The translations under genes were made by a program, and so were the position numbers. From Biomaibacter acetigenes (GTDB lineage: Bacteria > Bacillota > Thermosediminibacteria > Thermosediminibacterales > Tepidanaerobacteraceae): DNA of 64,000 nt. The notes under the pieces are model-generated. The model searched no databases, had not been told where the DNA came from, and saw only the letters and a list, made by a program, of their open reading frames with translations. Positions 4,602 to 57,790 of this stretch are shown here, piece after piece. Within the stretch, counting starts at the first letter, position 1. Each line of letters opens with the position of its first letter. The stretch lies in contig NZ_CP033169.1 in assembly GCF_003691585.1 (NCBI RefSeq), positions 3,038,001-3,102,000 on the forward strand, read 5' to 3'.

Positions 4602-4707
4602 TTATAAAAGAATCTTTGATTCTAAATCCTCGGGCACAAGGCCCGACTTATTAAATCGGTAGATTCTCTTGAAACTTTGTGCGGCATTCTGCCGCAGTCG
4701 TTTTAAA
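4602..4707. repeat. 106-bp intergenic repeat, copy 1
   Basis: This block matches 56708-56813 at 102 of 106 positions without gaps. It contains three inverted repeats: AGAATC/GATTCT around a TTT loop, TCGGGC/GCCCGA around a 5-base loop, and TGCGGCA/TGCCGCA around TTC. On the minus strand it carries CAAAGTTT, 11 bases, then ACCGATTT, similar to a sigma-28 promoter. It begins three bases after the DUF1385 stop and ends 21 bases before prfA. The loop region of the middle hairpin holds all differences between copies. Confidence 0.9.
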
Positions 4708-55144: not shown

Positions 55145-55249
55145 CCCCTATACTATTAAAATACAGGACTTGTTTTTTTTTATTTTTTATTATAACACAT
55201 ATCCCCTTAATTGTCCGTGTCAATATGTAGTAGGTAAGTTTTTTAAAAA

Positions 55250-55478
55250 TAGACAGACGCCTCACGGCGTCTGCCCCTCAAGGAACCGGACGTGCGCAAT
55301 TTACGCATCCGGCTCTTCACACAGCCATTTACATCATTGTGGCTGATAATCGTAGATATTAATTCCCTTGCCTACGCTTAGGCCTTAGGTTACCCATCGA
55401 CCCCAAGGCTAGGTAATGGTGGCTGGCTAGGTCTTACCATGCAGATTTCTGCTATATGCTGTGCGCCTCGTGGCGCAC
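55250..55478 (-). mobile_element. Group II intron remnant without maturase
   Basis: On the minus strand the segment begins GTGCGCC, the group II 5' end form, and contains a domain V-like hairpin at 55283-55315: GAGCCGG / CCGGTTC lower stem with the AGC triad, the CG bulge, and TGCG / CGCA upper stem; the apical loop lacks the usual GAAA. Domain VI-like stem CAGACGCC / GGCGTCTG follows (55253-55275) and the element ends near CTAT. Total length is about 229 bases, far below a full domain I-VI ribozyme, and no reverse transcriptase is encoded, so most of domains I-IV has been lost. It lies 31 bases after the oxidoreductase stop. Confidence 0.75.
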
Positions 55479-55509: not shown

Positions 55510-56643
55510 CTAGGAAACCGCAGTTTCCATCATTTTTGCCACATCAAGAGCTCTTTTCGCATCTTCAAGGGTCACATCAGGTTTAGATTTTTGCCCTTTC
55601 AAGGCATGGACAAGGTCTACGATACCTTGCCGCACGCAGGCTCTATACACTTCCCAACGATCCCGGTCCAGACGAAAAACATATTCCATTCGGGCTGTGG
55701 ATTCAAATTGTTTACCCCTGCCCTGAAAAACGCTGCCTTCAGGGAACGTTTTTAACTCCCTTTTTTCCAGTCGGACATCGATTCCGGGCAAAAAAGTCCG
55801 GGCTTCATCTAAAATATCTCCCGTCAAAAACTCGTCCGTTTCCGGGGTAACCATGGCATCTACGGCCAGGGTTATGGGTATCCACCCTTCGGTCTTTGTG
55901 TAAGCTCTTTCGAATATCAGGGAAAAGATCGTGTTTTCAAAGGCCTCGGGCTTTGTAAACCCGTGATAGTAGCTTACTACAGCGCCTTTTGGATGAAAGG
56001 CGACCCCCGTCACTCTGTCTATAAAATTATGCCCCTCTCTCCCGTATTTTGAGCCCCGGGCTCCAAGCGGAGGGCCTATCAGCCAGTTTACCAGGTCAAA
56101 AAAATGTACCCCATGCTCCACCCAGATACCGCCGCTCTTTCATAGTCCCAGAACCAGTGCTGCGGCGGCAGAGTGTCATCATGGGCATAATTTTCAAGGT
56201 AAGCCCTTTCGGGAAGTCCAAAGGTGTCCTTTTCACAAAGTCTTTTCAGTATCAGGTACAGGGGGTTTCTTCGCATCACAAAATCTATGCTGGCCTGGAG
56301 GTTTTTTTTTCGGGCTAAATCCACCAATTCCTGCATATCTTTCGGTTCATAGCTCCGGGCTTTTCCAGAAATACGTGTTTGCCCGCCAATAGCGTCTTCC
56401 TGGCCAGGTGAACGTGCATAAATGGAGGTGTGGAAATAATGATGATATCCGTATCCAGGTCATTTATGAGGTCGTCGGCATTGTCATATATCTTTACGAT
56501 ATTAAATCTTTGCTTGAATTCTTCAGCCTTTTTTTTATCGATATCCGCTGCGGCGGTCACACATATCTCTTTGGCGTCCTGCAGTGATTCCAGAATCATT
56601 CCTGCAAACCACCAAGCCCAACAATCCCCGCATTTATTTTCAT
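55510..56643 (-). pseudogene. Gfo/Idh/MocA family oxidoreductase, interrupted by three one-base deletions
   Basis: Three apparent one-base losses (near 56606-56608, 56344-56345 and 56136) break an otherwise complete gene of about 378 codons. Corrected, it starts MKINAGIVGLGGFAGMILES (Rossmann motif), has STPPFMHVHLARKTLLAGKH and LEKPGAMN (the EKP motif) near residue 98, and a C-terminal domain with GGIWVEHGVHFFDLVNWLIG near residue 180. Such enzymes oxidise sugars, inositols or related compounds with NAD(P). The ATG at 56643 follows GTGGGGG. It may be a pseudogene or a victim of consensus errors. Confidence 0.8.
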
Positions 56644-56707: not shown

Positions 56708-56813
56708 TTATAAAAGAATCTTTGATTCTAAATCCTCGGGCACAGGGCCCGAGGTATTATATCGGTAGATTCTCTTGAAACTTTGTGCGGCATTCTGCCG
56801 CAGTCGTTTTAAA
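56708..56813. repeat. 106-bp intergenic repeat, copy 2
   Basis: Same element as 4602-4707, same orientation, 102 of 106 bases identical. The middle hairpin is a perfect 8-base stem here (CCTCGGGC/GCCCGAGG). On the minus strand it contains CAAAGTTT-N11-ACCGATAT, 13 of 16 positions matching a sigma-28 consensus. It lies 64 bases upstream of the oxidoreductase start and 18 bases after the stop of the gene at 56832. Confidence 0.9.
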
Positions 56814-56831
56814 AAAGCACTGATTTAATAA

Positions 56832-57790
56832 TCAGTGCCATGGATCCTGCGGAAATTTCATTATAACCTTTTTTAAAATCCTGAGTTCTTCCGGGGTATC
56901 GTCGTGGAACATTCCCTTTTTTAAGCCCTGAAGTTCCCTCATACCCTTCCGGGTGGTTATATTCATATCCTTTGTAATTCTAGAGACGGTCCTGTTCCTG
57001 GCTTCGGTTATGGAATCTATCAGGTTTGCGCCGTTCTTTATCTGGTTTTTAAATTCTTCGGTAAGGTAGTATGAAGCCATCTGGGTGAGGGGATTTCCGC
57101 ATATTCCGCTTCTGGTGACTCCAAAGACTTCCGGCAATTTTTTGGCTATGCCCACTTCCACGGACCATTTCAATTCCTCAGTCTCTCTGCGCATACTCTC
57201 CCTCAGGGTTTTTGGAGTGCATATGGCGTAGTTTTTAAAGACCGGATGATGGCATGCTCCACAGTGTGGGCTTTTTCGGGTTCAATTTCACCGTTTAAGC
57301 GTCCCACTATAGCCACTTCCTTGCCGGTTTCGTATTCAAAGCCGTATATGGTTATCTCTATATTTTTCCTGTCGGAATCAAAGGTGGTATATCCTCCCCT
57401 TGGATGCCAGCCCGCCCCGCAAATAATGGGGTATCCCTCATTCCTCATCTTCTGGAAATCAAGCTTTTCTATTCCAACAGCCATGAGGCCCTTTTCTGTA
57501 AAGTCGAAATTTCTGGCCTTACAACTTTCCCTGCCTATGACTCTGGCAAAAAGCCCGGTACCATTCCCTCCGGGCAAGGTATCCTTCCATATATCTTCAA
57601 TCCTGGCCAATACGCCAACGGGATAAAGGCCATTATCTTCGGAAGAAATGGGAAATATGAATATCTCTCCTCCAACTCCGGCATTTAGAATCATCCTGGA
57701 AAAATAGGGATCGAGAAACACACCCTGCAAAATGCCTCCATCCGGGCGGGGAAGCACACCATTTACAATTGGAAGAGCAAATACGTTCAA
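56832..57790 (-). pseudogene. Conserved protein of unknown function, one apparent frameshift
   Basis: Two frames join if one base is added to the T5 run at 57232-57236, giving about 319 residues. The first part has LPRPDGGILQGVFLDPYFSR, CGAGWHPRGGYTTFDSDRKN and HTVEHAIIRSLK; after the junction come YAICTPKTLRESMRRETEEL, WSVEVGIAKKLPEVFGVTRS and RNRTVSRITKDMNITTRKGM. No membrane segment or signal peptide is seen. The conserved His/Glu/Cys residues could form an active site, but I do not recognise the family. It lies downstream of dusB in the same direction (106-base gap). Confidence 0.6.

Follow-up and report, generated by a model that had tools for sequence, protein, structure and literature searches.

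Palindrome-associated transposable elements (PATEs) were defined as mobile elements with palindromes near their ends, without terminal inverted repeats and without target duplication, which are too short to code (PMC3119063); in Haloquadratum they have also inserted where intact IS200-type genes are lacking (PMC3119063). The repeat family reported here shares with the PATEs of Haloquadratum walsbyi (PMC3119063) and with the PATE-like sequence of Halanaerobium hydrogeniformans (PMC7290912) the near-terminal palindromes, the non-coding size, the lack of terminal inverted repeats, the absence of target duplication (here in class II, see below) and an IS605-like left end. In contrast to those systems, it is found in Clostridia (Bacteria), is about 100-140 bp long with two directly adjacent end hairpins, falls into several classes whose ends differ by compensated stems, and has copies in several families. 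A second point of comparison is provided by REP and REPIN sequences with their RAYT transposases (PMC3116915, PMC2817692) and by the GTAG- and CGTC-tagged REPs (PMC3733652), which are likewise short palindromes scattered between genes, with a movement attributed to Y1-family enzymes acting in trans, and of which the CGTC type also has no dedicated transposase. However, REPs are single palindromes of 20-40 bp arranged head to head or tail to tail, whereas the element consists of two different hairpins in direct order with defined ends.

The window, i.e. the whole stretch of 64,000 nucleotides analysed here (G000:C1:3038001-3102000), belongs to the 3.40 Mb single-contig genome of Biomaibacter acetigenes. 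A first-pass annotation had reported a 106-base repeat at 4602-4707 and 56708-56813, and recomputation gives the same ungapped identity of 102 out of 106 positions. The distances to neighbouring genes hold as well: on the minus strand copy 1 lies 2 bases past the stop of a DUF1385 gene (4710) and 21 bases ahead of the prfA start (4580), and copy 2 lies 18 bases past a stop at 56832 and 64 bases ahead of the ATG at 56643 of a frameshifted Gfo/Idh gene. The latter, a Gfo/Idh/MocA oxidoreductase gene (55510-56643, minus strand), is spread over three frames and represents either a pseudogene or sequencing frameshifts; the window also contains a group II intron domain match (42 bits, 55223-55317, minus strand) and a gene with a Transposase_31 (YhgA-like) domain, PF04754 (6320-7300, minus strand). 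Both strands of the window copies fold stably (z -5.1 to -6.9), with none of 200 shuffles equally stable. The three short stems described earlier are present, yet the element is better represented as two compound hairpins than as three independent stems, because the outer AGAATC arm pairs over a long range (Table 1).

Table 1. Features of the two window copies (positions are those of the window)
Feature	Position	Strand	Basis
Copy 1, element proper (left-end and right-end hairpin), between DUF1385 gene and prfA	4604..4702	-	Boundaries from 60-odd aligned copies; orthologous site empty in G001, G004, G009
Pentamer TTTAA beside left end of copy 1, mostly TTTAT elsewhere; putative target or left cleavage site	4703..4707	-	Letter conservation across sites
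Left-end hairpin H2 of copy 1, short form, GAA loop	4672..4702	-	Folding, alignment; plan like IS605 left ends
Right-end hairpin H1 of copy 1, two-tier, ends in TTTTAT	4604..4669	-	Compensatory pairs 9-81, 10-80, 12-78 of alignment A3; helices 1-2 of alignment A4
Copy 2, element proper	56710..56808	-	Alignment, BLAST; site empty in G001, G004, G009
Pentamer TTTAA at left end of copy 2	56809..56813	-	Boundary and flank alignment
Left-end hairpin of copy 2	56778..56808	-	Folding, alignment
Right-end hairpin of copy 2	56710..56775	-	Folding, covariation
Intrinsic terminator of upstream gene, copy 2 directly after	56816..56839	-	Terminator prediction

On the minus strand the common plan (boundaries marked ^) is TTTAT^ or GTTAT^, a left hairpin (AACGACTGCGGC...GCCGCACAAAG), a right hairpin (TCTACC...CAAAGA) and a terminal TTTTAT^ or TTGATAT^, in a total of some 99-140 bp, which is too short to encode a transposase. 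The palindromes stand near both ends in direct order and their feet are common to both hairpins (5' CGAC or CTACC, 3' CAAAG), while terminal inverted repeats are absent (left end AACGACTG, right end TTCTTTTAT or TTTTGATAT). Class I reads TTTAT^AACGACTGCGGC-AGAAAA-CCTGACC-CCTTGT-GGGTCAGG-ATGAAT-GCCGCA-CAAAGTTTCAAAAGAATCTACC...CCTCGGGC...GCCCGAGG...GAATCGAAGATTCTTTTAT^ and class II GTTAT^AACGACTGCGGC...CACAAAGTTTCATCAAAATCTACC...CTTCGAGG...CCTCGAAG...AAAATCGAAGATTTTGATAT^. A third group in G001, G004 and G009 is characterized by the basal stem ATCACAGTC/GACTGTGAT (L073, L074, L076, L077) and, together with L091, makes up a related tandem subfamily. In the window copies the left hairpin is shortened, its inner stem being deleted down to the GAA loop; this short form is dispersed too and present in G009, so that the inner stem, judged from sequence, is probably dispensable for movement. 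Other composite forms were seen: L010 (1495-1625) holds a right-end-like fragment followed by a strong terminator-like hairpin where the left end would be expected, the second hairpin is likewise an unrelated one in L006, L007, L008 and L230, which gives the impression that end hairpins can be swapped, and in L216, L217 and L224 a truncated element is fused to a different hairpin repeat (GACAATCTACC ... GAAGACGATTGTCTTATTAT), which may be a class of its own.

Copy counts rest on search matches, obtained with BLAST and with a covariance model built from 16 copies (alignment A3). The genome of B. acetigenes yields 16 BLAST matches, about 11 of them full or variant copies and the remainder fragments. 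The model finds further copies in the sister genus g4 (G004, G009), in the congener G001, in G398 and in the Peptococcaceae MAG G391 (PLQY records, about nine copies); the Clostridiales MAG G409 (JASGMB records) gives 83 raw matches, a few of which are antisense shadows of the same copy, i.e. roughly 80 copies, and one further family beyond these MAGs contributes a single copy. A scan of all GTDB species genomes, from which the window's own genome may be missing, found the exact left-hairpin pattern in three MAGs other than that genome. Carriage by phages or plasmids was considered and rejected: neither the viral contigs nor the phage sequences searched contain a match, and the one plasmid match is short and without meaning. 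A literature search with the element's sequence string returned no relevant paper.

Letters flanking the element are conserved only in the pentamer adjoining its left end: among sites selected by the pattern [TG]TTA[TA] (an unselected site list was compiled separately), positions -4 to -2 are invariant, -1 is T or A, -5 is T or G, and beyond -6 the sequence is random. Class II copies have GTTAT as their left and GATAT as their right flank, i.e. target duplication is absent, and the TTTAT on both sides of class I fits duplication as well as its absence. Insertion sites are polymorphic. The orthologous intergenic regions of G001, G004 or G009 lack the element at copy 1, copy 2, L003, L007/8, L011 and L012; at most loci the flanks of the empty sites are too diverged to rebuild the exact pre-insertion sequence. 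Tandem arrays are formed by L004/L005, by L007/L008 and at contig ends of G009, and in L198 and L209 one copy starts directly after the TTTTAT end (TTCTTTTAT) of another; such junctions are compatible, but no more than that, with TnpA excision and insertion as single-stranded circles. Copy 2 and a few others hinted that the element favours terminator T-tracts, but the idea was rejected, as 16/56 sites compare with 167/655 among controls (p = 0.63). Sampled at 20 points, the GC skew of the B. acetigenes genome locates the origin at about coordinate 0 and the terminus at about 1.6 Mb. The presumed active strand is the lagging-strand template for six of seven copies in the right replichore and one of two in the left, a bias that falls short of significance and is confounded by the direction of genes (same-strand model matches only, tandems counted once, the copy at 1.608 Mb excluded as too near the terminus); it agrees with the lagging-strand-template habit of IS200/IS605 elements (PMC6006769) and is only suggestive.

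The many copies, the polymorphic insertion sites and the transposon-like ends bear out in kind the initial description of a dispersed, possibly mobile or REP-like sequence, and the left end points to its relatives. Seven genomes that do not carry the element were matched by the model below E 0.01 (G082, G099, G154, G198, G315, G373, G383), and six of these matches fall on the left end of a tnpA/tnpB (Y1-transposase) element, tnpA being broken in several. In such IS605-type elements of other Clostridia, e.g. L111 (G315) and L113 (G383), the distance from TTAT to the inner stem is 18-19 nt, against 18 nt here, and the internal loop (GAAAA / ATGAA) and the CTTGT-type loop agree; however, they carry tnpA and tnpB and have right ends unlike H1, whereas the element is gene-less. 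None of the matched elements has a right end related to that of the element, and no intact Y1 gene bearing the element's ends was found; the IS200 of the B. acetigenes genome has other ends. G391 contains no Y1 gene, G409 (roughly 80 copies) only Y1 fragments, and neither the carrier genomes nor a wider pattern search revealed an autonomous partner with the element's ends. The IS200 just mentioned, whose TnpA is encoded at C1:146002-146358, starts TTGTAT^AACGAAAACCACC (L047, 1330-1360) and shares TAT^AACGA with the left boundary of the element; its end recurs as a solitary copy in the flank near L012.

Because it has palindromes near its ends, no terminal inverted repeats and no target duplication in class II, and is too short to code, we regard the element as most probably non-autonomous and of the PATE kind, either a derivative or a parasite of an insertion sequence of IS200/IS605 type. 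To the observed insertion polymorphism, ends, left-end match with Y1 elements and tandem junctions we add, by inference, the enzyme and chemistry of transposition. The minus strand would be the active strand, and the shared feet of the two hairpins could allow one Y1 HUH transposase, acting in trans, to bind both. This enzyme would cleave single-stranded DNA on the 3' side of TTTAT (or GTTAT) and, at the right end, on the 3' side of TTTTAT (or TTGATAT), the cut ends would be joined, and the circle would enter 3' of a further TTTAT with no duplication of the target; insertion beside the end of an older copy would give rise to tandem arrays. After insertion, copies would decay neutrally and would additionally be altered by template-switch copying between hairpin arms.

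Such copying concerns the stems, for which covariation had been proposed as a test. Covariation is strong and significant: among 80 aligned matches (6 of them antisense shadows) 26 of 34 pairs have changed on both sides, and paired-change cells number 212 compared to 78 in shuffled alignments (0/500), while slid structures give 29-73. This establishes the helices as genuine structures of folded nucleic acid. Covariation does not, in itself, show selection on a transcript. Single changes from the commonest pair in classes I and II comprise 73 GT and 83 AC and show no wobble bias, the numbers remaining even without column 39-155, which gives 16-18 AC cells and is probably misaligned. Neither strand thus appears to have been kept folded, as a folded strand would show GT in excess of AC, or the reverse. 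Furthermore, in 14 copies from three genomes the internal loop of the left hairpin has been made symmetric, either by the right arm becoming a copy of the left (nine copies: L193, L194, recognised by eye in the arm-copy listing, L202, L204, L214, L219, L221, L231, L239) or by the left becoming a copy of the right (five: L083, L189, L215, L240, L069). Independent events are fewer owing to shared descent (e.g. L193, L202, L204), perhaps about ten by our own estimate. Symmetric left hairpins arising in both directions are the footprint of template switching at imperfect palindromes. The template-switch mutations of PMC8794818 likewise pair several mismatches at once and copy one arm from the other, but those cases were inferred on rRNA trees, whereas here they concern paralogous mobile copies and both directions. 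CTTG loops are enriched in template switching within hairpins (PMC8794818), and the left-end loop of the element contains CTTG.

A more far-reaching proposal, to which we give some room but consider rather unlikely, is that the element represents an orphan class of single-strand-transposing hairpin elements, which would reach roughly 80 copies without a dedicated transposase, using a passing IS605 or an unrecognised host enzyme, and whose stem covariation would come largely from template switching in replication or transposition, so that covariation statistics would wrongly label it a structured RNA. Less probable again is a REP- or BIME-type palindrome moved by a RAYT transposase instead of an IS200/IS605 TnpA. 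The element does consist of small palindromic intergenic repeats and RAYT-like Y1 genes are present in G001, G004, G007, G009 and G398, but these genes adjoin a different repeat (GGGGACGGTTCT/AGAACCGTCCCC), the model finds no copy of the element beside them, the B. acetigenes genome, G391 and G409 are without an intact RAYT-like gene, and the hairpins stand in direct order and not head to head. In relatives, RAYT-like Y1 genes flanked by GGGGACGGTTCT ... AGAACCGTCCCC are located at L050, L121, L062, L122, L051 and L059.

The alternative of a structured regulatory RNA or leader, selected in the transcript and carried to many genes, draws on the strong covariation and on copy 1, which has the orientation of the DUF1385 and prfA genes on either side of it and for that reason is probably transcribed. 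Given the missing wobble preference on either strand and the arm copying in either direction, the covariation is therefore not evidence of a selected RNA, and RNA-based control, as first suggested, finds no counterpart in changes favouring a folded transcript. Insertion sites, moreover, are not kept between relatives, Rfam has no match at gathering score, no promoter or terminator was seen inside the element on the minus strand, and terminator-like matches on the plus strand are its own hairpins. A regulatory role is unlikely, and this reading of the family as a whole very improbable. Equally improbable is a classical MITE whose DDE transposase would duplicate a 5-bp TTTAT target; this would account for the TTTAT on both sides of class I but not for the missing terminal inverted repeats, the differing ends of class II (GTTAT and GATAT, without duplication) or subterminal asymmetric hairpins that match Y1 left ends. 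A sigma-28 promoter cassette, which the first-pass annotation proposed from CAAAGTTT-N11-ACCGAT in the window copies, is scarcely credible: the letters are present and fliA is indeed encoded in the genome, but 3 of the 16 letters in copy 2 and more than 3 in copy 1 deviate from the consensus, chance alone should yield about one match with at most 3 mismatches per window (four were found), the -10 half varies across the family (ACCTTGAA, ACCTATTA, ACCTTTTA etc.) with a spacer of 10 in one genome, and the only persisting letters, CAAAGTTT and CTACC, are hairpin feet.

As a probable element of the PATE kind, the family adds a bacterial case with clear boundaries to the few PATEs described. Its classes, in which target and end sequences differ together, and its seemingly exchangeable end hairpins constitute a natural experiment on how the choice of target is encoded. 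It also carries a warning, as significant covariation in a repeat family can stem from copying between arms and from what transposition requires; the ratio of GT to AC among single changes helps to tell such covariation from selection on RNA.
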